Shown here one piece after another: positions 573 through 53,013 of a DNA stretch of 64,000 nucleotides. Below the pieces are notes generated by a model that ran no database searches, was not told the DNA's origin, and saw only the letters and a list, made by a program, of their open reading frames with translations. The stretch is taken from positions 1,006,501-1,070,500 of the forward strand of contig NZ_AP027370.1 in the NCBI RefSeq assembly GCF_030296055.1, written 5' to 3'. Every line of letters begins with the position of its first letter. Positions within the stretch are counted from its first letter, which is position 1. The position numbers and the translations under genes were made by a program. The DNA is from Hydrogenimonas cancrithermarum. GTDB lineage: Bacteria > Campylobacterota > Campylobacteria > Campylobacterales > Hydrogenimonadaceae.

Positions 573-965
573 TATTACAATGTCGTACTCAGTAAAACCT
601 ACAAAACGGAACTCGATCCCAGGATCGGTTTTCTACATGAGCCCAACTACAGAGCGCTGAGCCAGCATCTGGATATCGTCGAAATTTTCAAACCCGTCTT
701 AGGAGACAACCTGATTTTCACCCTTCTCAATCGTGAGCAGATCACCGCCAAATCTTTCAAAACGGATGCCGGACTAATCCGCTTTACCAACGAAGCGATC
801 AAAACCATCGAAACAGCCATGATCGGGAAACTGACCGAACAGATCAAAATCGGCACCCAACGTTTGACTTGGCGCCAGGTGATACGAAGAGAAGTCAACC
901 ATGTTAAACGTTGTATATGCGAATTCGATGCATATCAACCTTTCATTTACGAAAAATATCGATAA
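573..965 (+). pseudogene. cas1: cas1 3' fragment next to array 1
   Basis: The frame encodes about 130 residues that align with the C-terminal third of the intact Cas1 at 38561-39568, by eye close to 80 percent identical. It starts at the YNVVLS region. It keeps the helical-domain segment with the metal-ligand motif GFLHEPNYRALS and the following HLD..EIFKP, but lacks the N-terminal half and the first catalytic Glu. A TAA in the same frame at 567-569, at the IS junction, closes it upstream. It ends directly before the array 1 leader, the same cas1-leader-array order as in the intact locus. I infer a decayed adaptation module. Confidence 0.9.
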
Positions 966-1099: not shown

Positions 1100-4000
1100 A
1101 TTCTGATGTACCCTATGGGAATTGAAACGTCCGAAAATCCTAAATTTCATAGTCCCTCGCTATACATTCTGATGTACCCTATGGGAATTGAAACAGATCA
1201 GGCTCTGCGCAGGTATCGCTCCGTAATGTATTCTGATGTACCCTATGGGAATTGAAACTCGCCTGCTGACGCGTCCACATCGTCCGCCATGACATTCTGA
1301 TGTACCCTATGGGAATTGAAACGAGATAACCCGGTATTTGTCTTTGTGTTTCGGATCCGATTCTGATGTACCCTATGGGAATTGAAACTCTTCGATATAT
1401 CCCAGATCGTCATAATCGTTAAAATTCTGATGTACCCTATGGGAATTGAAACTAGCAGAGCCTCAACCGATACGCGGGAGAGGGGGATTCTGATGTACCC
1501 TATGGGAATTGAAACTCCAGAACAATGGCAATATATCAAAGATACGCAAATTCTGATGTACCCTATGGGAATTGAAACTAAGCTCCCCAGCCGTAAGTAA
1601 CGGGCCATTCTTTTATTCTGATGTACCCTATGGGAATTGAAACCCTTCGTGAGTACACAATAGACATCGATCACGAAGGATTCTGATGTACCCTATGGGA
1701 ATTGAAACTGGCGAAATTGGCGAAAGATGTAGCATTAGGTAAATTCTGATGTACCCTATGGGAATTGAAACCCGATGAATTTTCATAATCTTCCTGCCAT
1801 TCTTCATATTCTGATGTACCCTATGGGAATTGAAACTTTCGCGATCGCTCGCGCGATCATCGAGCTGCATCCATTCTGATGTACCCTATGGGAATTGAAA
1901 CTTCAAGCGATAGACAAGCTCTTCGCCGTAGGTTCTGATTCTGATGTACCCTATGGGAATTGAAACTATCTGATCGACACGACCTACTACAAGGACCGCC
2001 TGATTCTGATGTACCCTATGGGAATTGAAACAGGTTTCCTTAAACCTAAAATCTACAAATTGTAAATTCTGATGTACCCTATGGGAATTGAAACATCGAT
2101 CTCCGGGTGTTCGGCCTTGAGCCGTTTGGATTCTGATGTACCCTATGGGAATTGAAACGAATGGTTGGTAGATGAAGGTAAATCGGCTATCGGAATTCTG
2201 ATGTACCCTATGGGAATTGAAACCGACATTATATCACGACTTCAATTCCGACATCTATTCTGATGTACCCTATGGGAATTGAAACTAACGGCTTGCAGCT
2301 CGTCTATCTCCAACCCACCGAATTCTGATGTACCCTATGGGAATTGAAACCGCATCATGACACGGACACGGACACGAACACGGAATTCTGATGTACCCTA
2401 TGGGAATTGAAACCCAGTGTGAACCTTGAATGATTCAAAGTTCTCTGTATTCTGATGTACCCTATGGGAATTGAAACGTGACACTTTTTTGTGGTTTAAG
2501 GAAAAAAGTAAAATTCTGATGTACCCTATGGGAATTGAAACTACGAATAGCGGATATTCAACGGACGATACACACAATTCTGATGTACCCTATGGGAATT
2601 GAAACTACTCTTCTTTAAACGCCTTCATAAGGTTATCTTATTCTGATGTACCCTATGGGAATTGAAACGTTTCGCTGTGGAGCGGATTTCCGCTCTCCGT
2701 CAATTCTGATGTACCCTATGGGAATTGAAACGGAATTTTTTGCCATTGATAGTCCACGATGAGTAGATTCTGATGTACCCTATGGGAATTGAAACTCGCT
2801 ATAAACATAAGAAAGTCATATGCTTCCTGCATTCTGATGTACCCTATGGGAATTGAAACAGTCTCATTTTGCCTCCTTTTTGTGTCGTATATCGATTCTG
2901 ATGTACCCTATGGGAATTGAAACCTGGTTTCACGTTCCTACAACCATGATCGACAGGATTCTGATGTACCCTATGGGAATTGAAACGACAATAGCGACAC
3001 GGTTTTTTCGCTTTGTTTCAATTCTGATGTACCCTATGGGAATTGAAACCCAGAATGATGCCGCGCTGTCGCAGCGCCTCGCGGAAATTCTGATGTACCC
3101 TATGGGAATTGAAACTAGACTCCATAATCCGTGAGAAAGAAGACCAGTTGATTCTGATGTACCCTATGGGAATTGAAACTACGCTGAAGGTGGCGGAAGC
3201 GTCACATCGCCGAAAAATTCTGATGTACCCTATGGGAATTGAAACTTCCACGGGGCTATTGAATCCCATGTACCGTATAAAATTCTGATGTACCCTATGG
3301 GAATTGAAACTCCTACACAATCGTGCGGTTGGGTATGGGAACAAAATTCTGATGTACCCTATGGGAATTGAAACTTCGACATATGCCAGGCTTCGCGGCC
3401 GTGTCGACCAATTCTGATGTACCCTATGGGAATTGAAACCAGAGCGGTGGAAGAGCGATAACGAATACGCCGTGAATTCTGATGTACCCTATGGGAATTG
3501 AAACTGTTTTCCTCGATCTCAATCTCACAAGCGAAACTATATTCTGATGTACCCTATGGGAATTGAAACACAGGTTTGCGATTGTATACGACATAATCCC
3601 CACTATTCTGATGTACCCTATGGGAATTGAAACTCCGAACGAGATAAAAGTTTTGCTTCGCAACAATATTCTGATGTACCCTATGGGAATTGAAACCGAA
3701 GTGGTGCAAAAAGTACGGTTTCAAAGGTGTAAATTCTGATGTACCCTATGGGAATTGAAACACTGCTGTAATCGATTGAAAATTTTCGACAACTGCTATT
3801 CTGATGTACCCTATGGGAATTGAAACGAGGCTATCAAGTGGGAGGGGTGACATGGAAATAATTCTGATGTACCCTATGGGAATTGAAACGCCGCCATGTT
3901 CCATCACGCCATATCACGTAGCTTATTCTGATGTACCCTATGGGAATTGAAACCTCATCAACGCCCCCCGGGCGGCCCGGGCCGGCTCCATTCTGATGTA

Positions 4001-5602
4001 CCCTATGGGAATTGAAACTGCCACTTGTTCCTATTCCGTTGATAGTGTCGTGATTCTGATGTACCCTATGGGAATTGAAACTGGGATAAATTTGCCGAAT
4101 CACCTTTCACAAAAGATTCTGATGTACCCTATGGGAATTGAAACTTGACTCGAAAAAATCAGCGAATTTCTCGTCGTCAGATTCTGATGTACCCTATGGG
4201 AATTGAAACGTTGTTTTTTTTGTCACAACTGTCACAACTATACATTCTGATGTACCCTATGGGAATTGAAACTTCGGGTCCGGCAGGCATTGCAAAAGCG
4301 AAAAGCATTCTGATGTACCCTATGGGAATTGAAACCAAGCTCTTCATGTGTTACTCTTTTCATTTTTTCCATTCTGATGTACCCTATGGGAATTGAAACA
4401 TCTGAAGCTGTTGGAGGCCTCTTTGAGCCGTGGATTCTGATGTACCCTATGGGAATTGAAACACGGCACTGCCGGAGATTTGCAGATCGCACAATATTCT
4501 GATGTACCCTATGGGAATTGAAACGTTTTTTCAACATCATGCGAATACCCCAATCTTTATTCTGATGTACCCTATGGGAATTGAAACCAGAAGCCGCGAA
4601 ACTCGGCATCAAAATCGAGTTGATTCTGATGTACCCTATGGGAATTGAAACTCTTCTCAACGTGTTTGCCATTCAGCTCGATTTCCATTCTGATGTACCC
4701 TATGGGAATTGAAACGCTGTAACTTCCGCATTCGCTGACACTGCTGTTTATTCTGATGTACCCTATGGGAATTGAAACATGTACGCGTCGATGAGGTTCT
4801 CAGGGTAGTTGGATTCTGATGTACCCTATGGGAATTGAAACTTTGATTTTGATCCTGCTCGGCTCGTCTCTTGGATTCTGATGTACCCTATGGGAATTGA
4901 AACCACGGTATATCATCACGACACGCCACTCATATCAATTCTGATGTACCCTATGGGAATTGAAACTTAACACTGAATTGTAATATAGCATCTGCACAGA
5001 CATATTCTGATGTACCCTATGGGAATTGAAACTCGACGATGAGCTGGATGTCGAACGTGCCGTCTCCATTCTGATGTACCCTATGGGAATTGAAACCACT
5101 TGTTACACGGGTCTTTTTTGTGGCAGTGTATTCTGATGTACCCTATGGGAATTGAAACTCAGGACCGCAACCAGACACATTGCTAACCCAACCAATTCTG
5201 ATGTACCCTATGGGAATTGAAACTAACGAAGGAAGCAGGGGGAGGGGGATTCGGGCCGCTATTCTGATGTACCCTATGGGAATTGAAACTCCAGGACGAT
5301 ATAACATGGCACCGGAGGGGGCAAAGCATTCTGATGTACCCTATGGGAATTGAAACAGTATGGGTGGAGTGAAGAACGTCGATTCTACCCCATTCTGATG
5401 TACCCTATGGGAATTGAAACTTGTTTCAGATATGTGGGTATGTGATTAGCGGCGTACATTCTGATGTACCCTATGGGAATTGAAACCTGCCACGCAAGCC
5501 TAAGAAGCCGTGTGCCCATGATTCTGATGTACCCTATGGGAATTGAAACTACCAGTATGCAAGCACCGCGATTTTATGCCCCTTATTCTAATGTACCCTA
5601 TA
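1100..5602 (+). CRISPR. CRISPR array 1: 70 full repeats of 29 bp plus a degenerate terminal repeat
   Basis: I counted 70 identical 29-bp repeats, starting ATTCTGATG and ending GGGAATTGAAAC, from 1100 to 5549. Spacers are 33-38 bp. A degenerate partial repeat follows at 5585-5602 (ATTCTAATGTACCCTATA), giving 70 spacers. The 3' octamer ATTGAAAC is the usual 5' handle of mature type I-B crRNA. The degenerate copy marks the trailer end, so transcription is on the plus strand from the leader at 966-1099. No intact cas genes adjoin it. The nearest set is about 31 kb beyond the trailer end of the array, next to array 2. Four spacers (at 1579, 2732, 3762 and 4273) have identical or variant partners in array 2. 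Confidence 0.98.
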
Positions 5603-15220: not shown

Positions 15221-16342
15221 ATGGAAAAAATTATCGATATTATCGACTCTATTGCCCATGAAAAGGGCCTGCCGCCCGAATCTGCCAAAGAGGCGTTCAA
15301 AACGGCGGTGATTCAGACCGCGAAACGTGTCATCTGCGAAAACTGCGACTTCGAAGTCGAAATCGACGAAAAGCACAAGCACTACAACCTTTATCAAAAG
15401 ATCACGGTCGTAGAAAACGGCGACCCGAGACTGGTCGATGAACCGGACAAATACATCTCCCTCGAAGAAGCCAAAGAACTCGACCCGGACGTCGAACTTG
15501 GAGACGAACTGACAAGCGAAGTGAATCTCGAAGATTACGGACGCAGCGCCGCAGCGGCTCTCTATCACGAGATCGAGTATCACATTCAACGCTTCGTCGA
15601 AGAGCAGATGTTCAACAAATACAAAGCGATGATCGGCACGATCGTCAACGGCCCGGTCACGCGCGTCGACAGCGAGCAGAACACCTATATCGAGATCGAC
15701 GAAGTTCGGGCGGTACTGCCCAAGCGTAACCGCATCAAGGGCGAATCGTTCCGCGTCGGCGACACGATCAAAGGCATTTTGCGCTACGTCGGCATCGACA
15801 AAAAGTTCGGTATCCACCTCGAGATCTCCCGAACCATGCCGAAATTTCTCGAAGAGCTGCTGCGCCAGGAGGTCCCGGAGATCGCCGACGGCCTGGTCGT
15901 CATCGAAAAGTCGGCACGAATACCCGGCGAGCGGGCCAAAGTGGCACTTACCGCCACCAGCCCGCGTGTCGACCCTGTCGGTGCCACCGTTGGCGTACGC
16001 GGCGTGCGCATCAATGCCGTCAGCCAGGAGCTGCATGGTGAAAACATCGACTGCATCGAATACTCTCCGATTCCGGAGATCTTCGTCGCCAGAGCGCTCA
16101 GTCCCGCCATCATCAGCAGCGTCAAGATCGAAGAAGACAAAGCGATCGTCACGCTGCCGAGCGACCAGAAGTCCAAAGCGATCGGCAAGAGCGGCATCAA
16201 CATCCGTCTCGCATCGATGCTGACCGGCTACCAGATCGAACTCAACGAGATCGCTTCGACGTCGGCACCATCTGCAGAAGGCGGTACCGAAGAGGAAGCC
16301 CAAATCAACCCGGACGCACTCAAAGCACTCTTCGGGGAGTAG
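15221..16342 (+). CDS. nusA: transcription termination/antitermination factor NusA
   Basis: NusA binds RNA polymerase and modulates pausing, termination and rRNA antitermination. The 373-residue protein has the N-terminal polymerase-binding domain (1 to about 125), an S1 domain (about 130-195), and two KH domains (about 200-345) with IGKSGINIRLASMLTGY in KH2. It lacks the C-terminal acidic repeats of the E. coli protein, as in other Campylobacterota. Its stop codon lies inside the first unit of a 7-bp tandem repeat at 16337-16390. Confidence 0.96.
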   Translation: MEKIIDIIDSIAHEKGLPPESAKEAFKTAVIQTAKRVICENCDFEVEIDEKHKHYNLYQKITVVENGDPRLVDEPDKYISLEEAKELDPDVELGDELTSEVNLEDYGRSAAAALYHEIEYHIQRFVEEQMFNKYKAMIGTIVNGPVTRVDSEQNTYIEIDEVRAVLPKRNRIKGESFRVGDTIKGILRYVGIDKKFGIHLEISRTMPKFLEELLRQEVPEIADGLVVIEKSARIPGERAKVALTATSPRVDPVGATVGVRGVRINAVSQELHGENIDCIEYSPIPEIFVARALSPAIISSVKIEEDKAIVTLPSDQKSKAIGKSGINIRLASMLTGYQIELNEIASTSAPSAEGGTEEEAQINPDALKALFGE

Positions 16343-16538
16343 TGAGTAGTGAGTAGTGAGTAGTGAGTAGTGAGTAGTGAGTAGTGAGTAACGGTAGCCT
16401 TTGGCTACCGGTTTGTCAAGATTTTGCTAAAAACCGTTTTTCACGCTTCCATCTTCCATCTTCCATCTTCCATCTTCCATCTTCCATCTTCCATCTTCCA
16501 TCTTCCATCTTCCATCTTCCATCTTCCATCTTCCATCA
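16337..16538. repeat. heptad-hairpin-heptad element A (nusA/dppB gap)
   Basis: The whole gap between convergent nusA and the ABC permease gene is one structured element. It holds GAGTAGT repeated 7.7 times (16337-16390), a perfect 8-bp hairpin CGGTAGCC-TTT-GGCTACCG (16392-16410), a 36-bp linker, then TTCCATC repeated 13 times (16447-16537). The second array is purine-rich on the opposite strand, so the two 7-bp arrays face each other across the hairpin. Both flanking stop codons (16340-16342 and 16536-16538) are made of or touch repeat sequence. Elements at 20251, 32235 and 60436 have the same plan. Confidence 0.9.
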
Positions 16539-17495
16539 TCCCCTCTTCGCATACGGATTGAGTCTCCAAAGTGCCAAATCGGCCAGAACGTTTCCGAGCA
16601 GCGTCAGAAATGCCGTAATGATCAAAATCCCCATAATCACCGGATAATCCCGGCTCAGTGCCGACTGATAGAAAAGCAGCCCCATCCCGTTGATCGAGAA
16701 GATCGATTCGATGATGACGCTGCCGCCGATAAGCCCCGGCAAAGAAAGACCGAGGATCGTGACAATCGAAGGCATGAGATTCGGCATGATAAACCGCTTT
16801 CGGATATTTTTGTCGTCGATGCCTCGGGCCTTGGCGAAAAAGATGTAATCGCTTTTCAAAATCTCCAGCGTCAAAGATCTCACATACATCGTCAAACCGC
16901 CGATCCCTCCAAAGACCATGACGAAGATGGGGATGGCGAGGTGCCATGCGTAGTCGAACCACTTCATCAGACCCTCTTTGGGTTCGATACTCTGCAACCC
17001 GCTGATGGGAAACCAACCGAGCTTGAGGGAGAGAAAGAGAATGAGCAGAAGTGCGAGGTAGAAAGAGGGCATCGCGAAACTGACCAAAGAGAGCTGTTTG
17101 ATGGCTCTGTCCGCCGGACTCTGCGCTTTCAGCGCCGCCTTGATACCAAGACGAAGCGAAATGAAAAAAATGAACAGCATGGAAACGATATTCATCGTCA
17201 AGGTTATGGGAATGCGCGAAGCGATCTCGCTGCTGACACTGTTGCCACTGGCGAACGAGAGGCCGAAATCGAGATGCAGCAGCGCCCAGACCCAGCGGAC
17301 ATACTGCTCCCACAGCGGCCTGTCGAGGCCGTAGATCGCCTTCAGATGCTCGATCGACTCTTTGGTGATGTTGGGGTTGAGCTCTCCTGCCGCGAAAAAA
17401 CTGTTAGGCGCGGCGTGTATGGCGAGAAATGAGATGAGCGAAATGAGCCCGAGCATCCCGCCGATGTAAAGGAGTTTACGGATGAAAAGAGACAT
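16536..17495 (-). CDS. oligopeptide/dipeptide-type ABC transporter permease (DppB/OppB family)
   Basis: The 319-residue protein has six predicted membrane segments, the N-terminal segment and periplasmic loop usual for DppB/OppB permeases, and a cytoplasmic EAA-type loop (TLEILKSDYIFFAKARGIDDKNI). It would form a channel with a second permease and two ATPases for peptides or a similar solute. None of those partners is in the window: the gene follows a small secreted protein and ends at element A. The substrate is unknown. Confidence 0.85.
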   Translation of the reverse strand: MSLFIRKLLYIGGMLGLISLISFLAIHAAPNSFFAAGELNPNITKESIEHLKAIYGLDRPLWEQYVRWVWALLHLDFGLSFASGNSVSSEIASRIPITLTMNIVSMLFIFFISLRLGIKAALKAQSPADRAIKQLSLVSFAMPSFYLALLLILFLSLKLGWFPISGLQSIEPKEGLMKWFDYAWHLAIPIFVMVFGGIGGLTMYVRSLTLEILKSDYIFFAKARGIDDKNIRKRFIMPNLMPSIVTILGLSLPGLIGGSVIIESIFSINGMGLLFYQSALSRDYPVIMGILIITAFLTLLGNVLADLALWRLNPYAKRG

Positions 17496-36656: not shown

Positions 36657-38423
36657 GTTTCAATTCCCATAGGGTACTTCAAAATAGTGTCCTGCAGAAG
36701 TACGACGTATTTCTTATTAGTTTCAATTCCCATAGGGTACTTCAAAATTGACGAGGATCGTCGGAAAAGGGCCGGGAGCGAAACGTTTCAATTCCCATAG
36801 GGTACTTCAAAATGATGACTGGTGGAAAGATGGTTTTTACGAAACAATGTTTCAATTCCCATAGGGTACTTCAAAATGCTTCGCCTGGGTTTGAAACTCT
36901 TTCGTTCCAAACTCAGTTTCAATTCCCATAGGGTACTTCAAAATAAAGTTGATTATCTGTTCCGTATTTTACGGAATACTTAGTTTCAATTCCCATAGGG
37001 TACTTCAAAATTCAGTTCTGCAACCAATGAAAATATCTTGATCGAGTTTCAATTCCCATAGGGTACTTCAAAATGCTTCGCCTGAGCTTGAAACTCTTTC
37101 GTTCCAAACTCAGTTTCAATTCCCATAGGGTACTTCAAAATATATATCCGCAGTTCGGACAGACGTATTTATTCAGTTTCAATTCCCATAGGGTACTTCA
37201 AAATTGTACGTTCGACTTTTTTCATGCCAAGCGTGGCAGTTTCAATTCCCATAGGGTACTTCAAAATCAATCGTACTTCCGTAAATTTCATCTTTCATTT
37301 GTTTCAATTCCCATAGGGTACTTCAAAATGTAGCTTCCGAAATCTGTCCGCCCACTCGTCGATGGGTTTCAATTCCCATAGGGTACTTCAAAATTGATAG
37401 AACCATAGTATGGGTCGTACCTGAAGCAGTTTCAATTCCCATAGGGTACTTCAAAATACAGGTCGGTGTCCTCCATGACGTCGCCAGGGACAGTTTCAAT
37501 TCCCATAGGGTACTTCAAAATCCAAGACATTCTTTCAATGTCGTCACGCTCATCAGTTTCAATTCCCATAGGGTACTTCAAAATACTCTTTTAGTATATC
37601 GAAACCATGCTCATCAAGAAGGTTTCAATTCCCATAGGGTACTTCAAAATCGTAAACAGTGTTTAGGATCTTTGTAATGTTGTCATGTTTCAATTCCCAT
37701 AGGGTACTTCAAAATTCGCCTAAGCTTGAAACTCTTTCGTTCCAAACTCAGTTTCAATTCCCATAGGGTACTTCAAAATAAAAGAATGGCCCGTTACTTA
37801 CGGCTGGGGAGCTTAGTTTCAATTCCCATAGGGTACTTCAAAATCAGTTGTCGAAAATTTTCAATCGATTACAGCAGTGTTTCAATTCCCATAGGGTACT
37901 TCAAAATCTACTCATCATGGACTATCAACGGTAGAAAATTCCGTTTCAATTCCCATAGGGTACTTCAAAATCCAGTCTGTGGTAACATTTACCCACTCTG
38001 TATCAGGTTTCAATTCCCATAGGGTACTTCAAAATTAGCTTCCGAAATCTGTCCGCCCACTCGTCGATGGGTTTCAATTCCCATAGGGTACTTCAAAATG
38101 CTTTTCGCTTTTGCAATGCCTGCCGGACCCGAAGTTTCAATTCCCATAGGGTACTTCAAAATAAGAAGCTCATCGAGGAGTATACTTCCGCATCGTCAGT
38201 TTCAATTCCCATAGGGTACTTCAAAATGAGAGGATATATATATTCCTGTCGATGTAGATGGGTTTCAATTCCCATAGGGTACTTCAAAATAAAAGTCAAG
38301 TTGATCTTTTATCCTTGCACTGAAATCTGGTTTCAATTCCCATAGGGTACTTCAAAATGAAGTTAGTGATAGTTGAAACGTCTATCTCAATCGTGTTTCA
38401 ATTCCCATAGGGTACTTCAAAAT
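36657..38423 (-). CRISPR. CRISPR array 2: 28 repeats of 29 bp
   Basis: There are 28 repeats with 27 spacers of 33-39 bp. On the minus strand each repeat starts ATTTTGAAG and ends GGGAATTGAAAC, differing from array 1 only at positions 4 and 8. Transcription is on the minus strand from the leader at 38424-38560, next to cas1. Four spacers match or nearly match array 1. Two more families recur within the array: three variants at 36878, 37075 and 37716, and two copies at 37330 and 38036. Confidence 0.98.
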
Positions 38424-38560
38424 AGCACCAATTACTCCATAAGAAGGAGCTTTCAGGTATCCATTTCCTTAAAATTATACCTGAAAAACAGCTGCTATCC
38501 AAAAGTTTTCTATTTAGCTATTCCCATAAAAATAGGGTTTTAAAAATCTTAAAAATCACT
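38424..38560 (-). promoter_or_regulatory. leader of CRISPR array 2
   Basis: AT-rich DNA between cas1 and the first repeat. A minus-strand TATAAT lies at 38474-38479, inside an 8-bp inverted repeat TCAGGTAT (38453-38460) / ATACCTGA (38477-38484). GGGAATAGCT near 38518-38527 recurs in the array 1 leader. Confidence 0.75.
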
Positions 38561-39568
38561 TTACTTGGGTTTACCCTGATAAAAAGGACGATACTCGTCA
38601 TATTCACAAATGCAGCGTTTAAGGTGATTGACCTCGCGACGGATTATCTGTCTCCAAGTGAGCCGCTGCTTACCAATAGTAATCTGTTCGGTTAGTTTGC
38701 CGATCATCGCCGTTTCGATTGTCTTGATGGCGTCGTTGGTAAAACGGATGCGGCCGGCATTCACTTGGAACGATCTGGAGGTGATCTGCTCACGGTTGAG
38801 CAGGGTGAAGATGAGATTGTCTCCAATGACGGGTTTGAAGATCTCCGCAACATCCAGATGAAGGCTCAAAGCCCGATAATTTGGCTCATGTAAAAACCCG
38901 ATGCGCGGATCGAGTTCTGTTTTGTAGATTTCACTAAGTACCACGTTGTAAATACGAGTGTTGACATAGGATATCATCGCGTTAATCTTATCGGCTGGTG
39001 GGCGTTTGGTACGGATGGTAAACTTGAAGCTGCGCTGGTTTTTGACAATAGTATTCCAACGCTGGTAGTACTCTTTTTTAAACGCACCCTCTACCGCCAT
39101 CACTTCACCGATGCTTCGGGCACTTTCCAGCGCTTCCAAATGGGGTTTTTCTTCCATCTCCACCCCACGTCGGATACAATTGTAGACGCCATTGCGTATC
39201 TGTCCCTCGGTGAAGGCTTTGGCAATATAAAGACGCTGTTTCGGATCGTCGAAAGCCCGTACCTGTTGCAGCAGCACGAAACCGCTTTTATTGACGCTAT
39301 TCGGGGTATTGGGATAGAAGTTTCCTCTAAAACTCTGGTAAGGGCTGAAGAAATGCAACAGGATATTATTGTCAGCCAGAAAAGCTAGAGTGTAACTGTC
39401 AATCTCCACTCTGGCTAGTACATAGATTTCATCGATGGCGTTTATGGGTAAAATTTTCGCCTGCACCAACGTCTCATCTTCGTTATAACGGTCGAAATAG
39501 AGATTATTGTCTCGGCGTCTAAGCCTCCCGGGACTCAGTATAAAATGAGTACGGTCATTTTTTTGCAT
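38561..39568 (-). CDS. cas1: CRISPR-associated endonuclease/integrase Cas1
   Basis: Cas1 is the integrase that inserts new spacers together with Cas2. The 335-residue protein has the type I-B form, with likely metal ligands Glu150, His217 (GFLHEPNY) and Glu232. It ends about 137 bp from the array, with the leader between. It is the last gene of the cas operon, 8 bp after cas2. The C-terminal third is about 80 percent identical to the fragment at 573-965. Confidence 0.97.
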   Translation of the reverse strand: MQKNDRTHFILSPGRLRRRDNNLYFDRYNEDETLVQAKILPINAIDEIYVLARVEIDSYTLAFLADNNILLHFFSPYQSFRGNFYPNTPNSVNKSGFVLLQQVRAFDDPKQRLYIAKAFTEGQIRNGVYNCIRRGVEMEEKPHLEALESARSIGEVMAVEGAFKKEYYQRWNTIVKNQRSFKFTIRTKRPPADKINAMISYVNTRIYNVVLSEIYKTELDPRIGFLHEPNYRALSLHLDVAEIFKPVIGDNLIFTLLNREQITSRSFQVNAGRIRFTNDAIKTIETAMIGKLTEQITIGKQRLTWRQIIRREVNHLKRCICEYDEYRPFYQGKPK

Positions 39569-39576
39569 ATTTGCTC

Positions 39577-39855
39577 CTAACTGAAAAGCGGCTCGTTCTT
39601 GTCGATACCGATGACCTCCCTACGAGTATAGCTGGGTTTGTCGAATTCGTATATGACGATGGAATCAAGATCGTGTTCGCACTCTTTTTTTAGCTTCGCT
39701 TTGAGCTTTTTGAGATCACTTGGTCGAATCTCCCCTTCGAAAACCGAATATTGCACCCTGGGCAGATACTTCTCGACCGCTTTCCGAATGCTCCGGCTAT
39801 TATCTTTTTCCTTCATGGAACGATCGGCAATGTCATAAAATAAAATCACATACAT
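39577..39855 (-). CDS. cas2: CRISPR-associated protein Cas2
   Basis: Cas2 bridges Cas1 dimers in the spacer-integration complex. The 92-residue protein has the ferredoxin-like start MYVILFYDIADR with Asp8, the core YLPRVQYSVFEGEI and the tail RREVIGIDKNEPLFS. It lies between cas4 and cas1, giving the order cas4-cas2-cas1 rather than the more common cas4-cas1-cas2. Confidence 0.96.
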   Translation of the reverse strand: MYVILFYDIADRSMKEKDNSRSIRKAVEKYLPRVQYSVFEGEIRPSDLKKLKAKLKKECEHDLDSIVIYEFDKPSYTRREVIGIDKNEPLFS

Positions 39856-39864
39856 ATGTAACCT

Positions 39865-40365
39865 TCAATAACAGTAGTTACGGTATCCGCATTTGGCGCA
39901 AAAGGCGATCTTTTCAGGCTTGGGTGGCCTTGGCTCATCCAAAAACCGGCTCATCTCTTCAAGTAACGCCTCCATCATCCGCATATTTTCCTCATTTCCT
40001 TCGACGAAAAGCACCTTTTTGCCACTGATGACCTTACCGTCGATTTTCCTGAGTTTAAGATTCTTTTTGAGCAGGTACATGTAAAAGAGCAGCTGCATCT
40101 TCGCACCTTCCGGATTTCTAAAGCTTTTTTTGTATTCCGTGACTACGTAATGACCCCGTTCTTTGCCAATTTTGTCGAACTTGAGGTTGGAAAAGGCGAA
40201 ATCCTCAAGCTGTTTTTCCTCCTTGATCTCCGCAAGTGCCCGCCCCATAAGGATATTTTCATCGTTTTGGTCCGCTGAAATTCTGTGGGCGAAGAGCCAT
40301 GCCTCTCTCTTGCAGGTAACGTAATACTGCACCGTCGTACCGGTGATGAGATCGGGGTCATACAT
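39865..40365 (-). CDS. cas4: CRISPR-associated exonuclease Cas4
   Basis: Cas4 trims prespacers and helps select those with a PAM. The 166-residue protein has a first cysteine (TCKREAWL), a RecB-type nuclease motif (VVTEYKKSF) and the C-terminal iron-sulfur cysteines CAKCGYRNYC. The ATG at 40365 overlaps the toxin gene by 8 bp, which links translation of the toxin-antitoxin pair to that of the adaptation genes. The cas2 start is 9 bp downstream. Confidence 0.95.
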   Translation of the reverse strand: MYDPDLITGTTVQYYVTCKREAWLFAHRISADQNDENILMGRALAEIKEEKQLEDFAFSNLKFDKIGKERGHYVVTEYKKSFRNPEGAKMQLLFYMYLLKKNLKLRKIDGKVISGKKVLFVEGNEENMRMMEALLEEMSRFLDEPRPPKPEKIAFCAKCGYRNYCY

Positions 40366-40621
40366 AATGAAATCTGCATTGGGCGACGATCAGACAATCA
40401 CCGTCTACCTTGTAAACCAGCCGATGCTCGTCGGTAATTCGCCGGGAAAAGTAACCGGCTAGATTACCTTTGAGCATCTCCGGTTTGCCAAGCCCATGAT
40501 TGTCTTGAGGATTGCGCGTGATATCTTTAATGAGCAGGTTGATCCGTTTGAGCACTTTTTTATTGGTCTGCTGCCAATGGAGATAATCTTCCCAGGCAAT
40601 GTCGGAAAACGCTACAATCAC
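40358..40621 (-). CDS. yoeB: YoeB/Txe-family mRNA interferase toxin inside the cas operon
   Basis: YoeB toxins cleave mRNA in the ribosomal A site. The 87-residue protein aligns along its length with E. coli YoeB: catalytic Glu48 (GKPEML), Arg67 (EHRLVY), His85 and Tyr86 (CRFHY), with one extra Val at the end. All key residues are present, so it should be active. The start overlaps the antitoxin stop by 4 bp and the end overlaps cas4 by 8 bp, so it is fully built into the operon. Confidence 0.93.
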   Translation of the reverse strand: MIVAFSDIAWEDYLHWQQTNKKVLKRINLLIKDITRNPQDNHGLGKPEMLKGNLAGYFSRRITDEHRLVYKVDGDCLIVAQCRFHYV

Positions 40622-40872
40622 TCTTCTACCAACTCTCTTTCCTGAAACCTTCCGGCTTCAATCTGACGAATCGACTCCAACAAACGCTCCCTGTTGGCAG
40701 GAGTCGAAAGCAAATAGAGCGTCTCCTTCATGCTGTTGTATTCATCCACCGAAATAAGTATCGCCTTGGCATCGTTTTTGGTAGTGATAAGATACTCCTC
40801 GAAATTTCGATCCACATCCTCAATCAACGATTTGAGATTGTTTCTAGCATGAGAGTAGTTGACGGCTTGCAT
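40618..40872 (-). CDS. yefM: YefM/Phd-family antitoxin inside the cas operon
   Basis: The 84-residue protein has the YefM/Phd DNA-binding N-terminus (VNYSHARNNLKSLIEDV, ILISVDEYNSMKETLYLL) and a flexible Glu-rich C-terminus that would wrap the toxin. Partner and order (antitoxin first, 4-bp overlap) are typical. The ATG at 40872 has AAGGAG upstream; a longer frame into cas3 is rejected. It lies just downstream of two identical palindromic operators, so autorepression with YoeB is expected. Confidence 0.92.
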   Translation of the reverse strand: MQAVNYSHARNNLKSLIEDVDRNFEEYLITTKNDAKAILISVDEYNSMKETLYLLSTPANRERLLESIRQIEAGRFQERELVEE

Positions 40873-40884
40873 TTTTTCTCCTTT

Positions 40885-40931
40885 TTGACAAAATATTGTC
40901 AAATTGTAGCCTATTGACAAAATATTGTCAA
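40885..40931 (-). promoter_or_regulatory. yefM-yoeB promoter with duplicated operator
   Basis: On the minus strand, TTGACA (40931-40926), a 17-bp spacer and TACAAT (40908-40903) form a near-consensus sigma-70 promoter. Two copies of the 18-bp imperfect palindrome TTGACAATATTTTGTCAA lie at 40914-40931 (covering the -35 and the cas3 stop codon) and 40885-40902 (covering the start site). They are 29 bp apart. This fits a Phd/YefM autoregulated promoter and lets the pair, and cas4-cas2-cas1, be transcribed independently of the effector genes. Confidence 0.85.
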
Positions 40932-43120
40932 AACAATTCGAACAACCCTTCAATTCCCTGCTCCTCTTCAATCAAAAAGCCTGTTTTTTCGCTGTATATT
41001 CCCTGATATTCTTCCAAATAGAGCAGTCCAAACAGATCGCTTTTCTTAAATATCACACCACTTTTTGTGATATCTCTCTTCTTGATATTGAGAATATGTG
41101 GGAGAAACGATTTGAACATTTTCTCTTTTGCACGCTTCAATTCCCATCGCCCAAACTCTTTTTCAAGTTCGAAATATCGCCGTTCCATTTCACGCAGATC
41201 GACGCCGAGCACCACTGAATCGGTATAGTCGTCTTCGAGCCGGAAAATTTTCCGTAAGGCCTCGCCAATTTTCGGAAAGTCAAATTTTTCGATCGCTTTC
41301 AAAATTTCGTACCGGTCCGACAGGGTCAAATCCAGTGTGGCAAAAAAGCTCTCTACCAGTTTCAGAATCTGCCGCTCCTCTATCCCGTCACACTCCTGCA
41401 AAGCGATCAAAAGATGATTGCGCGTCGCGCTCATCAAAGAACTGTCATAAATCTCATATCCCAACTTATCGAATATCTTCACTTCCGCCTGCCCTCGCAA
41501 CCCTTCACGATTGATCCGACCCGCAGTTTGAATAATGGAGCTAAGAGGCGCGAGCTCTCTGAACCCTATATCGAAATCAAGGTCCACTCCCGCTTCCACC
41601 ACTTGAGTGGAGATCAGCACTTTCTCTTCTACCCGATTGGACGTTTTTGTACGTAATGCACTCAAAGTCTTTTCGCGATCGACCGGCAACATATAGGAGT
41701 TGAGTGCATAGAGCCGTTCCTCTTCGATATTCTCTTTCAAACGCCCATACAACCGTTTGGCATTTTTGATAGTATTGACCACACAAAGCACCGAACGTCC
41801 TCTGCCGGCGGCATCGATCACTTCCATTGCCAGCTCTTCAAGCTTTCGTTCCTCATCGGTTTCTTTTAGATCGATCCATTTCAGAATGTAACGGTTTTTA
41901 CTCCGAAAAAGCACCTTCTTATCCGCCAGTTCGGGAACGTTTCTGGCCACGATCGGCATCGTAGCGCTCATCAACACAAAAACTGTGCCTAATATCTTTG
42001 CCAAAGGCTCGAAAAGTTGCTGCATCACCTTCCACAACTCAAATGGAATCGCCTGCACCTCATCGAGCACCACCACGCTGTTTCGCAAACTTTGAAATTT
42101 GATGTTGTCACTGTTGTGTTCACTGAAAAGCGCGAAAAAAAGCTGATAGAAAGTGGTTACAATAAAAGGATGGCTCCAGCTCTCTACCAAATATTTGATC
42201 CTGTCATAGTCGTTGTGCCCCTCTTCGTCCATCTCGGGATAGGCCACCCTGTAATGATGGGCCGTGATGCCTCCTGAAAAAATCTCCGAAAAAATCGCGA
42301 CAGTTTGGTCAATGATACTGGTAAACGGAATAGCGTAAATGATACGTTTTTTACCCTCTTTTTTGGCGATAGTCAATGCCAGTTCCAAAGAGGCAAGTGT
42401 TTTTCCTGCACCTGTAGGCGCCGTGATGGTTACCACCCGTTGGGGGTCTTCCTTCCAATTCCTCACAATATGATGCGCCGCTTTAGAGCGAAACGACGTT
42501 GTATCGAAACCTTTTCTCTTTTTGTAGTGTTCGAGATCTTCGACCGAACACTTCAGAGCAGGAGGATGAAAGGTCTTCGAAGTGATTGCTTCATATTTAT
42601 CAGCGAAAATCAGTTTTGAATAGAGCAATTTCTGGTGGATGAAATCTTCCGGACCCATCTGCAGCTCGTCGAAATCGAAACCCAAGTCTTCCAACAGTTC
42701 TTTGTCCATTCCGGGAAGGTTCCACCATCTTTCAACTTCCTCGTTCGCCAACAACTCGGCATATTGCCGCTGCCAAAGATTCCAGGACCATCCCATCTGC
42801 ACCGAAAGCGTTTCAGCCAACTTTTTTCTACTTTTTAACGGCGTATGGTGCGAAAAGATCGCATCGGAAATCATAAGCAGCTCTTTGGATGAGAGTCTAT
42901 CGGCATTGGCCAATAAAAAGGCCAGTGCCGAAACACCTGCATGAGGATCCGCCGAATCGCTCTTGTTGCGAATGTAGCACTGGAAAGATTCGGTACACTT
43001 TCCTAGATCATGAAACTTTGCGGCCAAGATAAAGAGCCTATCTCCATCAAAAGCTTCTATCCGGCCGATATGATCGATCAGCCTTTTACCCGGGTGTGAA
43101 AGAATTTCGCTCAACTCCAT
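40928..43120 (-). CDS. cas3: CRISPR-associated helicase/nuclease Cas3
   Basis: Cas3 is recruited by Cascade and degrades target DNA. The 730-residue protein has an N-terminal HD nuclease (His37-Asp38 in KFHDLGK, HH near 91), Walker A TAPTGAGKT (about 233-241), DEVQ box at 353-356, motif III SAT at 385-387 and the helicase C-terminal domain with QTAGRINREG. It follows cas5 with a 10-bp overlap. Its stop codon lies within an operator of the toxin-antitoxin pair. Confidence 0.97.
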   Translation of the reverse strand: MELSEILSHPGKRLIDHIGRIEAFDGDRLFILAAKFHDLGKCTESFQCYIRNKSDSADPHAGVSALAFLLANADRLSSKELLMISDAIFSHHTPLKSRKKLAETLSVQMGWSWNLWQRQYAELLANEEVERWWNLPGMDKELLEDLGFDFDELQMGPEDFIHQKLLYSKLIFADKYEAITSKTFHPPALKCSVEDLEHYKKRKGFDTTSFRSKAAHHIVRNWKEDPQRVVTITAPTGAGKTLASLELALTIAKKEGKKRIIYAIPFTSIIDQTVAIFSEIFSGGITAHHYRVAYPEMDEEGHNDYDRIKYLVESWSHPFIVTTFYQLFFALFSEHNSDNIKFQSLRNSVVVLDEVQAIPFELWKVMQQLFEPLAKILGTVFVLMSATMPIVARNVPELADKKVLFRSKNRYILKWIDLKETDEERKLEELAMEVIDAAGRGRSVLCVVNTIKNAKRLYGRLKENIEEERLYALNSYMLPVDREKTLSALRTKTSNRVEEKVLISTQVVEAGVDLDFDIGFRELAPLSSIIQTAGRINREGLRGQAEVKIFDKLGYEIYDSSLMSATRNHLLIALQECDGIEERQILKLVESFFATLDLTLSDRYEILKAIEKFDFPKIGEALRKIFRLEDDYTDSVVLGVDLREMERRYFELEKEFGRWELKRAKEKMFKSFLPHILNIKKRDITKSGVIFKKSDLFGLLYLEEYQGIYSEKTGFLIEEEQGIEGLFELF

Positions 43121-43806
43121 ATAACACGGCTACCTTCCACTTCGTACACGCCCACATCGCGACAACGAATCGAACGGCCTGATGTCTCTACCAAATAATC
43201 CCTGAAACCTCCGAATTCTCGCCCATTTGCGATCCGGGTCGCCATCCGCACATCGGTATAGGATTTCCCATCCTCCAACTCGAAGTCGACATCCAGAGGA
43301 ACCATGGAATCCACCATTACATCATCATATCGGATCGAACACCCCTCAGCAATTCCCAAAAATGAATAGGAGGCAAGACAGAAGTTGACTCCCATATAGA
43401 GAGGATAATAAGCCCTTCCATCTTCCATCGCGAAGAGTAGACGGTCGCGGACATCTTTTCCCACCTCCGAAAGATCGCAGTAGATTCTGTAATGTGGTGA
43501 CACCAGAAGCTCCCGGTAAAACTGTTTACGCCCTTTACGAAAGCCGTTTCGCTCCTTGGACGGATCGAGCTCAATGAGAGCATCCTTGATACCATTGAAG
43601 CAAAATTGCCGTTTCCCCTCCAGTCGCTCCACAACCACAGCATACCTCATGGCATTGAACGACAGATAATCTTGCACCCCCATAATGGCTCCCAGCATTC
43701 CCATCACAGTGGTCTTGGGCGGTACGGGGTAGGTGAGTGAACTGTAATTCGTGGCCGGATGGCTGAAATGACCATAATCGGCCTCGATACGCCAAACCAA
43801 TACCAT
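43111..43806 (-). CDS. cas5b: Cascade subunit Cas5, type I-B
   Basis: Cas5 caps the 5' handle of the crRNA in Cascade. The protein is about 231 residues, with the N-terminal WRIEADYGHFSHPATNYSSLTYPVPPKT block (G-rich RAMP-type fold). I start at ATG 43806, which lies 2 bp after the cas7 stop; ten further upstream codons would overlap cas7. It sits in the standard order cas8b-cas7-cas5-cas3. Confidence 0.93.
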   Translation of the reverse strand: MVLVWRIEADYGHFSHPATNYSSLTYPVPPKTTVMGMLGAIMGVQDYLSFNAMRYAVVVERLEGKRQFCFNGIKDALIELDPSKERNGFRKGRKQFYRELLVSPHYRIYCDLSEVGKDVRDRLLFAMEDGRAYYPLYMGVNFCLASYSFLGIAEGCSIRYDDVMVDSMVPLDVDFELEDGKSYTDVRMATRIANGREFGGFRDYLVETSGRSIRCRDVGVYEVEGSRVIWS

Positions 43807-43808
43807 CG

Positions 43809-44702
43809 CTATATCCCAAAGTCCCTGCGTTGCCACGTTTCGGGTATCGGTTCGATCGTGAGGGCTTCATCGTACCAATACTCCACCATGGCGATTTTGT
43901 CAGCGGCTTTATCCATCTTTTCAATCAGTCGGATGAGATCGATGCGGTATTCATCGATGGTCCGGATTTCGTTTCGCGCCTCCTTGTTGCTCACAAGATC
44001 CACCAGGTTATCGAGTGCACCGATGTAATGGCCTGGTTCTTTATAGGTGATTTTGAGCAAGAAACGGGGCATCTGTCCAAATTTGCTCCGAGAGATCAGG
44101 TTTTTTGTCCCCATCCAGAGCCCTTCAAGTACCGCTTTCACATCCTCTTCGCCGAGTTCGGTATCCGTTGCGGCCAAGGCATTGACGATGCCGTAGGTAC
44201 CGAAGATCGCATAAGGCAGGATGTATTCTTCCCGAAAAGTTTTATTCTCTTTGCCCGCCTGACTGGCGAACGCTCCCGTCCCTTTGACGAAGACAATCTC
44301 CGTCTCATGCAGCGACTTACTCATCTTGAACTGCATGGGACCGGTCAGGCTGTTGGTCTGCTTTTCAACGGGAAAGACTCCACCAAAAGCTCTCACATCG
44401 ATACACTTTTGCAAAATGGCACGCTCAACGTCTTCGGCGGCACCCGCTACGGTCTTGACTCGCTGTTTTCCGTCAGCCAGTCCCTTCCCACTCACCTCTT
44501 CCTTGACGAAAATCTCATATCCTTTGGCATCCAGATAATCGCGAATCGTCCGTTTGATCCGTACGTCGCTCACCAATGCTCTACGGCTGACCTCATCATA
44601 CCTCGGCGCATTGGCATTGAGTATGTCGCCATTTGGATTCCAGTTTTCTCCATCCCACAAAAAAAGCAGTTCCGCTTGCTTTGCAATCTCTTTTTCAGCC
44701 AT
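43809..44702 (-). CDS. cas7: Cascade backbone subunit Cas7 (Csh2 type, I-B)
   Basis: Cas7 forms the helical backbone along the crRNA. The 297-residue protein has the Csh2 start LLFLWDGENWNPNGDILNAN, ALVSDVRIKRTIRDYL, and the middle region AFGGVFPVEKQTNSLTGPMQF. The ATG at 44702 overlaps cas8b by 8 bp; the longer frame to 44732 is less likely. Confidence 0.95.
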   Translation of the reverse strand: MAEKEIAKQAELLFLWDGENWNPNGDILNANAPRYDEVSRRALVSDVRIKRTIRDYLDAKGYEIFVKEEVSGKGLADGKQRVKTVAGAAEDVERAILQKCIDVRAFGGVFPVEKQTNSLTGPMQFKMSKSLHETEIVFVKGTGAFASQAGKENKTFREEYILPYAIFGTYGIVNALAATDTELGEEDVKAVLEGLWMGTKNLISRSKFGQMPRFLLKITYKEPGHYIGALDNLVDLVSNKEARNEIRTIDEYRIDLIRLIEKMDKAADKIAMVEYWYDEALTIEPIPETWQRRDFGI

Positions 44703-46437
44703 TGTTTTCCTCCTTTTTCGGTCTGTTTTCACGATACGTTTTTAAATCCACAGCTCCCATGACAAAGGCGATGTTTGCCTGATCAATCGAAACGATATCC
44801 TCTTTCTTCAATGTCTCTTTCACCTCGGCATAGAGCGTCATCAAATCATCGTAGTCGCTTCCATACATCGAGTATTTGCGGCTCGCCTCGTAGATCTTGC
44901 GAAAGACACGGTCACTGTTTTGCATCGACAGCGCCCCGATGCCGTCGAGATATTTCTGTAGCGCATCGCTACCGTTTTGGTACTGCCAGTCCATCACAAA
45001 TTTCGCCAACGCTCCCAATACATAAAATTCCCGTGCCCTCGGCTTTTGTCGAAGCAGCTCCACCGCTTCGAACTTCTCTTTCGCCAATTGCGAAAAACGC
45101 TTACCTTCCTGCATCCTCACCTCCTTGTTCTCATGTAAATAGTCGTTTACGTTAAAACCCACTACGCCGAGTTTTCTCAGAAAATCCAAAAATCTCTGGT
45201 GCTTTTTGAAATCTATATCTTCGATATAGTATCCGTGAACGATCTCAGAAAGTTCCCGGCGTTCGCCGTTTTCCCGATTGTCGCCATAAAATATTTTCCT
45301 GGCGACCCAACGCTCAAGCAGTGGCATTGTCGGAATCGATTCTTTGCCAAATATCAGTTTTGCCAGCAGCAATCCATCTTCAATATAGTCTCCTAGATAG
45401 ACCCTATGGAGTTCCCGATTCTTGACTTTGATAAAGCGTGACGCTTTGCCTTCCATTCCATCCTCGTCCATTAGGGCAAACGCCCGTACAATCCTGGAAG
45501 GTGCCACATCTTCGATGAGATGGTGCAGATCGATGGCATTGTTCTGTTTGTGGGCAAAAAGAAAACTTAGCAGCACCTTTTTGCCCATCCGTTCACCTAC
45601 CAATCCTTTTGCCAGCCTCTGCAACTGCTTTTCGGCCATCACTTTACTTTCGGCACTCCCTGAATCCTCCCTGGAAAGCTGTGCCAGCTTGTCAAAAAAG
45701 TGTCGCTTCTCCTCAAAAAAGAGTGTTGGGAGTAGATAATAATTCAAACCGAATAGAGAAAAACGAAATATCTTCGCTTCGAAAAGTTTGACAAACCCCT
45801 GTTTCACCAGACATGCTTCGTCACGCCCCAAAGGAAGCAGTCGGTATTTGGTGATCTTCTGCAAAGGCTTGGGCAATTCGTTGACACTACAGAAATTGAG
45901 TCCTGCATCATATCCGATAACCATATCGTCGCTAAAATAGCTCGCACCTCTTTTCGTAAATACCCCTTCGCAAACCTTCTGCGCATAATTCTGCGCAACT
46001 TCAGGAAAAAGCTCATAAAAGGTCTTCCCATCCACTGTGAGGGCCAAATAGAGGTTTTTGATCTCCTTGTAGGGTTCAAGCAGGGCTTCGATCCTATCAG
46101 CATCGATGCGTTCATCAAATTTTCTGAGCTCTTCACGTCTGGCTTCGTCGAGGTATCTACGCATATTTTTAAATGCTTTTTTCAGCGCCTCTTTTAGTTT
46201 GTCAGGAGTATAGAAGAAAAAAGGATAGAGATTTCCACCGTTTGAAGAGGTCACCCGTAAAAAGAGTCTGGACCTAATCGCTTCTTTGTCGTAAATCTCC
46301 ACCCGATCCATATCGTCGATATCTACCAGTGCAATCTTTTCAATCGTCTTGACGTCGATCTGATTGTAATCCTGTAACGCTTCGTCCCGATACGCCACAC
46401 CCACATCCCGAAATATTTTTACCAGATCTGCCATCAC
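44695..46437 (-). CDS. cas8b: Cascade large subunit Cas8b (Csh1 type)
   Basis: Cas8b is the large subunit thought to read the PAM and recruit Cas3. The 580-residue protein matches the Csh1 form in length and position rather than by strong motifs. A segment with four possible metal-binding residues is not obvious. It overlaps cas6 by 4 bp and cas7 by 8 bp. With Csh2-type Cas7 it defines subtype I-B. Confidence 0.88.
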   Translation of the reverse strand: MMADLVKIFRDVGVAYRDEALQDYNQIDVKTIEKIALVDIDDMDRVEIYDKEAIRSRLFLRVTSSNGGNLYPFFFYTPDKLKEALKKAFKNMRRYLDEARREELRKFDERIDADRIEALLEPYKEIKNLYLALTVDGKTFYELFPEVAQNYAQKVCEGVFTKRGASYFSDDMVIGYDAGLNFCSVNELPKPLQKITKYRLLPLGRDEACLVKQGFVKLFEAKIFRFSLFGLNYYLLPTLFFEEKRHFFDKLAQLSREDSGSAESKVMAEKQLQRLAKGLVGERMGKKVLLSFLFAHKQNNAIDLHHLIEDVAPSRIVRAFALMDEDGMEGKASRFIKVKNRELHRVYLGDYIEDGLLLAKLIFGKESIPTMPLLERWVARKIFYGDNRENGERRELSEIVHGYYIEDIDFKKHQRFLDFLRKLGVVGFNVNDYLHENKEVRMQEGKRFSQLAKEKFEAVELLRQKPRAREFYVLGALAKFVMDWQYQNGSDALQKYLDGIGALSMQNSDRVFRKIYEASRKYSMYGSDYDDLMTLYAEVKETLKKEDIVSIDQANIAFVMGAVDLKTYRENRPKKEENNG

Positions 46438-47114
46438 AATATCTCCAAAAATCCCAGATTTTTCATCGTGTCGCTTCCCATCCCGGTTTTCAGAAGAAGA
46501 TTCAGCATCTCTTTGTCCGCTTCTATCTCATATCTAGCATTCCAAGCAACATAGGGAATATTTTCGTACCAGAAAGTCTGAGGTTTTGGACTTTGCCATT
46601 TGGGAGTGACGATCAGTTTTCCTTCATAAGGTTTTCCAAGCAAGGCTTCAAACTTTTGCAGCGAATGCTTGAGAACGATCCCAGTGTGTCGGTTTTCACC
46701 GGGTTCTAGAAAGATCTTACGGCCCGTCAGCGGATTTTTGACAGCGGCACATACAAATCCTCGTACCTGCAATCTGCCTTCTTCTGGAGCTTCACGTTCC
46801 ACCAGACTTACCGACGTCTGGGCAAAATGTACCTCTCCAAGCTTCAACCCCTCTTTGAGTACTGCCATGGCAAGCTCTTTTTCATGCAGAGGATTGAGTG
46901 CGGTGAAGTCGATCTCAAAACGGTCTTCGAAGTAGCGGATGCGAAAATTGGTGCTCTTGAAGCGTTTGCCGGTAGAGTGGGCATAGCCTTCATGCTCCTT
47001 CGGAGGTAGACAGGTATACGAAAAGGCTTGAAAAAGGCGGGCCATGCTCCTTCTTATCCGCACTCTTTCAGTGGAGGTTCTAGCAACGATATGAAGCACT
47101 CTTGATCCTTTCAA
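46434..47114 (-). CDS. cas6: crRNA-processing endoribonuclease Cas6
   Basis: Cas6 cuts the repeat RNA to leave the 8-base 5' handle ATTGAAAC. The 226-residue protein ends with the Gly-rich loop GMGSDTMKNLGFLEI that is typical of Cas6. A His near the N-terminus (EHEGYAHSTG, about 40-46) is a candidate catalytic residue. It is the first gene of the operon, about 60 bp after a TATAAT. The same enzyme should process both arrays because the handle and central dyad are identical. Confidence 0.9.
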   Translation of the reverse strand: MKGSRVLHIVARTSTERVRIRRSMARLFQAFSYTCLPPKEHEGYAHSTGKRFKSTNFRIRYFEDRFEIDFTALNPLHEKELAMAVLKEGLKLGEVHFAQTSVSLVEREAPEEGRLQVRGFVCAAVKNPLTGRKIFLEPGENRHTGIVLKHSLQKFEALLGKPYEGKLIVTPKWQSPKPQTFWYENIPYVAWNARYEIEADKEMLNLLLKTGMGSDTMKNLGFLEIL

Positions 47115-52953: not shown

Positions 52954-53013
52954 GAGTTTTGAGTTTTGAGTTTTGAGTTTTGAGAAAGATGACATGAACG
53001 GGAGTTCATGTCA
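52954..53013. repeat. heptad array plus hairpin (element E, half form)
   Basis: GAGTTTT is repeated four times (52954-52981), starting one base after the DUF2393 stop codon. It is followed by a perfect 10-bp hairpin TGACATGAAC-GGGA-GTTCATGTCA (52990-53013). It lies between convergent genes and may end transcription from both sides, although no T run follows. There is no second 7-bp array. Confidence 0.85.

Follow-up and report, generated by a model that had tools for sequence, protein, structure and literature searches.

How does one CRISPR array come to hold nearly the same spacer three times, by duplication of a repeat-spacer unit or by repeated uptake of the same target? The question is raised by array 2 of the window analysed here, a stretch of 64,000 nucleotides from the 2.38 Mb genome of a Campylobacterales vent bacterium, where spacers 4, 7 and 17 form a family (F1) of three variants:

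36657-38423, minus strand: CRISPR array 2, type I-B, 28 identical 29-nt repeats and 27 spacers, with a right-hand leader at 38424-38560
36878-36915, minus strand: spacer a2_04, F1 variant A, 38 nt, in crRNA sense TGAGTTTGGAACGAAAGAGTTTCAA followed by ACCCAGGCGAAGC
37075-37112, minus strand: spacer a2_07, F1 variant B, 38 nt, first 25 bases TGAGTTTGGAACGAAAGAGTTTCAA, then GCTCAGGCGAAGC
37716-37750, minus strand: spacer a2_17, F1 variant C, 35 nt, first 25 bases TGAGTTTGGAACGAAAGAGTTTCAA, then GCTTAGGCGA

The repeat reads GTTTCAATTCCCATAGGGTACTTCAAAAT on the plus strand (29 nt, 28/28 identical), and the crRNA strand is taken to be the minus one because the repeat then ends in ATTGAAAC and the right side of the array adjoins cas1. 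The three spacers have crRNA bases 1-25 in common and differ at positions 26, 28 and 29; A and B differ at 26 and 28, B and C at 29, and A and C at all three. An earlier, sequence-only reading had given these coordinates, the lengths of 38, 38 and 35, the common 25 bases and the restriction of the differences to the 3' third, all of which were confirmed to the base; it had also described the neighbours as unlike, and the spacers flanking the three copies are indeed all different from one another. The F1 pairs align with scores of 29-34 and chance similarity is excluded, since the best unrelated pair in arrays 1 and 2 reaches only 13.

The machinery adjoining array 2 is a cas locus composed as follows:

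38561-39568, minus strand: cas1 (type I-B)
39577-39855, minus strand: cas2
39865-40365, minus strand: cas4
40928-43120, minus strand: cas3
43111-43836, minus strand: cas5b-like gene
43809-44732, minus strand: cas7/csh2
44695-46437, minus strand: cas8b/csh1-like gene
46434-47114, minus strand: cas6-like gene, below the NCBIfam cut-off

The signature set of type I-B is present, with Csh2 (262 bits) and the Cas3 core above their cut-offs and the Cas5b and Cas8b matches significant, yet under the curated cut-offs; the adaptation genes cas4-cas1-cas2 adjoin array 2, as expected for that type. The locus resembles known type I-B systems (Cas8b/Csh1, Cas7/Csh2, Cas5h, Cas3, Cas4-Cas1-Cas2) in its gene set, its repeat end and its spacers of 33-39 nt. 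It departs from the typical arrangement in a YoeB-type toxin and YefM/Phd-type antitoxin pair (yefM/yoeB, window 40373-40971, minus strand) placed between cas3 and cas4 in the operon, and in the existence of a second array, whose repeat differs slightly and which has no intact cas genes. Elsewhere, the window carries perfect or nearly perfect tandem 7-base repeats at 16337-16390 (GAGTAGT, 7.7 copies), 16446-16541 (CTTCCAT, 13.7 copies) and 52954-52984 (GAGTTTT, 4.4 copies), of a kind that could shift reading frames. An aldehyde dehydrogenase encoded in the window shows 82% identity to that of a Hydrogenimonas MAG and 86% to that of another Campylobacterales MAG, so that the host would be Hydrogenimonas-like.

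The second array is an orphan, and of the cas operon only a remnant of cas1 is found beside it:

575-965, plus strand: C-terminal remnant of cas1 adjoining array 1 and close in sequence to the intact cas1
1100-5549, plus strand: CRISPR array 1, 70 identical repeats ATTCTGATGTACCCTATGGGAATTGAAAC and 69 spacers

An IS30-like transposase gene (HTH_38 plus integrase core; locus L038, 3588-4592, contig about 998.1-999.1 kb) lies about 8.5 kb upstream of array 1. The repeats of the two arrays differ at two bases, and all 98 of them (28 and 70) are pure in type. An all-against-all comparison of the 96 spacers of both arrays (69 and 27) gave eight related pairs in six families, below which the score falls from 27 to 13. 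Four of the families link arrays 1 and 2, two lie within array 2 and none within array 1; five of them, a1_08/a2_18, a1_42/a2_19, a1_26/a2_20, a1_50/a2_23 and a2_11/a2_22, had been missed by the earlier reader:

1579-1614, plus strand: spacer a1_08, identical to a2_18
2732-2766, plus strand: spacer a1_26, variant of a2_20
3762-3797, plus strand: spacer a1_42, a2_19 plus 2 nt
4273-4306, plus strand: spacer a1_50, identical to a2_23
37330-37365, minus strand: spacer a2_11, 36 nt, with the same PAM-side end as a2_22, encoding IDEWADRFRKL of a phage large terminase
37780-37815, minus strand: spacer a2_18, identical to a1_08
37845-37878, minus strand: spacer a2_19, a1_42 minus 2 nt at the PAM-distal end
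37908-37942, minus strand: spacer a2_20, variant of a1_26 with 4 substitutions
38036-38070, minus strand: spacer a2_22, 35 nt, sharing the protospacer of a2_11 but with 1 base less at the PAM-distal end
38100-38133, minus strand: spacer a2_23, identical to a1_50

All eight related pairs are in exact 5' (PAM-side) register, and their length differences of 0-3 nt are confined to the 3' (PAM-distal) end. Duplication of a repeat-spacer unit within array 2, with later mutation and trimming of the copies, would likewise yield near-identical spacers within one array. The equal lengths, common neighbours and co-transferred repeat type that go with duplication were not found: the neighbours are unlike and length changes on the PAM-distal side only, the three substitutions in F1 stand against none in the 28 repeats, and common spacers also occur between arrays whose different repeats are unmixed. 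With the four substitutions of a1_26/a2_20 added, still against none in repeats, Fisher's test gives p of about 7e-11 (about 5e-4 for F1 alone). A crossover shifting a spacer between arrays would normally bring donor repeat bases along, so that the pure repeats argue against recombination as well, although a crossover within the short stretch beyond the donor's two distinguishing bases would leave these behind. Hence, because of the exact register, the far-end length variation and the pure repeats, duplication and inter-array recombination fail, and independent uptake, with its constant PAM-side end, its free PAM-distal end and no transfer of repeats or neighbours, fits; duplication we consider extremely improbable. 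The sequence-only reading had argued against slipped duplication and for repeated uptake of target variants, and both claims are borne out by PAM-distal-only length change, mutated spacers amid unmutated repeats and recurrence across arrays with different repeats. Co-duplicated flanking spacers in sister strains, which it had named as contrary evidence, were seen in none of the relatives (17 genus genomes, all of other species). None of the redundant spacers turned up in those 17 genomes, and no spacer is shared with a relative whose repeat is very similar.

F1 thus very probably records three separate uptakes at one PAM-anchored site by the type I-B adaptation machinery adjoining array 2, from a single invader element that existed in several sequence variants. 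The uptakes would have been made by the adjacent cas1-2-4 genes, and the source was presumably a phage or other mobile element. The PAM-side cut would be fixed, so that each capture would begin at the same base, while a loose cut at the far end would make spacer lengths differ, and the base differences among the copies would represent natural variation of the target. Capture would have been repeated likewise at the five other sites, and among the invaders would be tailed phages of a family whose head module is lambda-like.

The variation within F1 may have another origin. Positions 1-30 form a hairpin with a stem of 12 bp and a loop of 6 nt. In folding z-score the F1 variants take ranks 1, 2 and 4 among the 96 spacers, and the changes at 26 and 29 preserve the stem (G-U or A-U pairs), the one at 28 breaking one pair. 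Since the folding is strong and the stem is kept by two of the three changes, F1 may be a palindromic element, and its variants could derive from several copies of such a repeat element in one invader genome, or from coexisting strains, instead of from a target changing over time; that no open reading frame is clearly favoured in F1 also speaks for this. We regard it as rather unlikely, as five other, non-palindromic families recur too, the host genome outside array 2 contains no F1 copy with 3 or fewer mismatches, none stood out in related phage contigs, and the array order A, B, C is the parsimonious order, though this would happen by chance one time in three. The sequence-only reading had proposed uptake from evolving relatives of one target; of this, the repeated uptake stands, and change over time is inseparable from coexisting variants or element copies for F1. 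A terminator function of the hairpin was considered and dropped, there being no T run after it inside the spacer. The third strongest self-folder is spacer a1_09 (window 1644-1679), with a perfect 9-bp inverted repeat and an 18-nt loop.

Folding might also explain why this particular site was retaken. A crRNA that folds on itself, seed included, would guide badly and protect weakly, the invader would persist and the site would be recaptured. We hold this explanation to be quite improbable. That folding and triple uptake go together was noticed post hoc, and folding cannot be the general cause of redundancy because the five other families are not hairpins. If it were true, self-folding spacers would be over-represented among repeated spacers generally. 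The folding of the most-repeated spacer provides a simple and testable idea on why some spacers are retaken.

Independent uptake could in turn have been primed or interference-driven, older matching or partly mismatched spacers steering capture to the same invader. This is possible but doubtful. The system is of type I with cas3, and interference-driven uptake is reported as dominant in a native Pectobacterium system (PMC5059440). Redundant families account for six of the seven consecutive array 2 spacers from 17 to 23 (p about 0.026 by permutation), a clustering that is modest and post hoc and provides only a hint. Against this, the seeds are unchanged, and the priming that the sequence-only reading had allowed for is not supported. 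The sequence-only reading had proposed to look for escape changes in the seed before each new uptake, but none of the six families varies in bases 1-8, the F1 changes at 26-29 lying far from the seed. That none of the seven substitutions in two families falls in the seed is not significant, yet it gives no support for escape before each uptake.

A further possibility concerns the cross-array matches, which would have been gathered in two hosts if array 1 had grown in a different lineage exposed to the same phages before being imported. Array 1 is an orphan whose only cas neighbour is a cas1 remnant, its repeat and leader differ, and it shows no internal redundancy (0 coincidences against 3.8 expected, p about 0.02, a hint only). 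The remnant is, however, close to the resident cas1 and the two loci are about 31 kb apart. Import, which we judge unlikely, would leave the F1 triple within array 2 unaffected.

The identity of the invaders was approached through the spacer targets. The searches turned up an exact protospacer for none of the spacers. For F1 they covered IMG/VR (no exact 25-mer, no match to one peptide frame), GTDB contigs (no match), 397 Campylobacterota genomes and phage and plasmid records, collections that are poor in phages of this host group. A phage search with the combined spacer set, a plasmid search with F1, the repeated families and a few more spacers, and IMG/VR scans for the exact a1_08/a2_18 spacer and for the YSSWTING peptide gave no match. 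Several candidates were rejected: five IMG/VR contigs with the F1 18-mer core, because their flanks mismatch; a three-mismatch F1 match in a Campylobacterales murJ-like gene, which equals the level of the reversed-pattern control; weak phage matches for F1 alone (E 0.5), with query coverage of at most 71%; and matches of the concatenated spacers of both arrays in five of the 397 Campylobacterota genomes besides the host's own (E 2e-4 to 0.007), roughly as many as chance would give.

Related targets were recovered at lower identity. A codon-degenerate IMG/VR scan for IDEWADRFRKL, the large-terminase motif of a2_11/a2_22, gave two contigs. Spacer a2_11 matches one, IMGVR_UViG_3300033146_005359, at 34/36 bases within the GpA terminase gene, the PAM side reading TCA, and a1_14 matches the GpA gene of the same contig at 31/36 with an identical peptide and CTC at the PAM position. 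The ten-residue peptide GTAGDLQIAQ of a1_53 is identical in a Campylobacterales MAG contig with a terminase of that family, where TCA precedes it, the support being weaker. Spacer a2_25 shows 76% and 65% matches, on the TCA side, to a conserved gene in L046/L047, which is suggestive of a target there, and a1_03 resembles a head-decoration gene with a peptide score of 39, below the shuffled maximum of 42. The PAM would then be TCA, as judged from few related, non-identical targets (a2_11, a1_53 and, weakly, a2_25), a1_14 having CTC; TCA is a PAM listed for type I-B of Campylobacter (PMC8482600) and of Clostridium (PMC4860712). Campylobacterota MAGs and Sulfurimonas phage SNW-1 encode relatives of the matched terminase. 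Among named phages SNW-1 (OP810509; PMC11290706) comes nearest to the targeted terminase relative (GpA 50% identity, lambda-like head genes, vent host) and itself has no spacer match above control level. The terminase contigs are relatives, not the invaders themselves.

The same genome carries a third array, which samples invaders in another manner:

C1:273246-287984 (contig coordinates, locus L075): type III-A locus with csm1, csm3, csm4, csm5, a TIGR02221 protein and its own cas1, and the 36-spacer array 3
37522-37555, minus strand: spacer a2_14 of array 2, homologous on the opposite strand to III-A spacer a3_34, frame [D/E]ERDDIERMS

Two array 3 spacers have opposite-strand homologues among the I-B spacers, namely a2_14/a3_34 and a1_60/a3_02 (frame TVYHHD[T/K]P[L/V]I), with scores of 47-60 against 31 for the top shuffled control. 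RNA targeting needs a crRNA antisense to the reading frame, and in both pairs the III-A crRNA is antisense. Four of the five base changes in a2_14/a3_34 are silent, as are three of the four in a1_26/a2_20 (frame YSSWTINGKKF), the remaining one being K/R. The coding constraint in these two pairs and in a1_60/a3_02 counts for independent uptake. Within array 3, two spacer pairs overlap in an offset manner, shifted by about 15-16 nt, and there is one further variant pair. Array 3, with its own cas1, has overlaps without the fixed register of the I-B pair of arrays, and the genome provides PAM-fixed and unfixed sampling side by side.

Repeated capture of one protospacer, TCA as I-B PAM and the sharing of invaders between systems are all already known, and the locus is an unusually clear new example of repeated capture, not a new kind. 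In the Legionella I-C system two spacers for one protospacer were acquired independently (PMC5071653); there, as here, a target site was captured more than once, but here it occurs in one natural genome, with up to three captures, sequence variants and two arrays with different repeats. Co-occurring CRISPR systems share acquisition and have compatible spacers (PMC8482600), and their distinct arrays sample the same invaders as those of the present genome do, in which, however, two I-B-type arrays have common spacers in exact register. The two I-B arrays amount to a capture-recapture experiment on the invader pool. With eight coincidences among 4560 pairs, the effective pool comes to about 570 protospacers (289-1320), and a likelihood estimate based on 96 draws, which hit 89 distinct sites, gives 619 (336-1400), even sampling being assumed in both. 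A pool of about 600 would correspond to one or a few tailed phage genomes' worth, and suggests long exposure of this organism to a small, persistent and slowly changing set of invaders.
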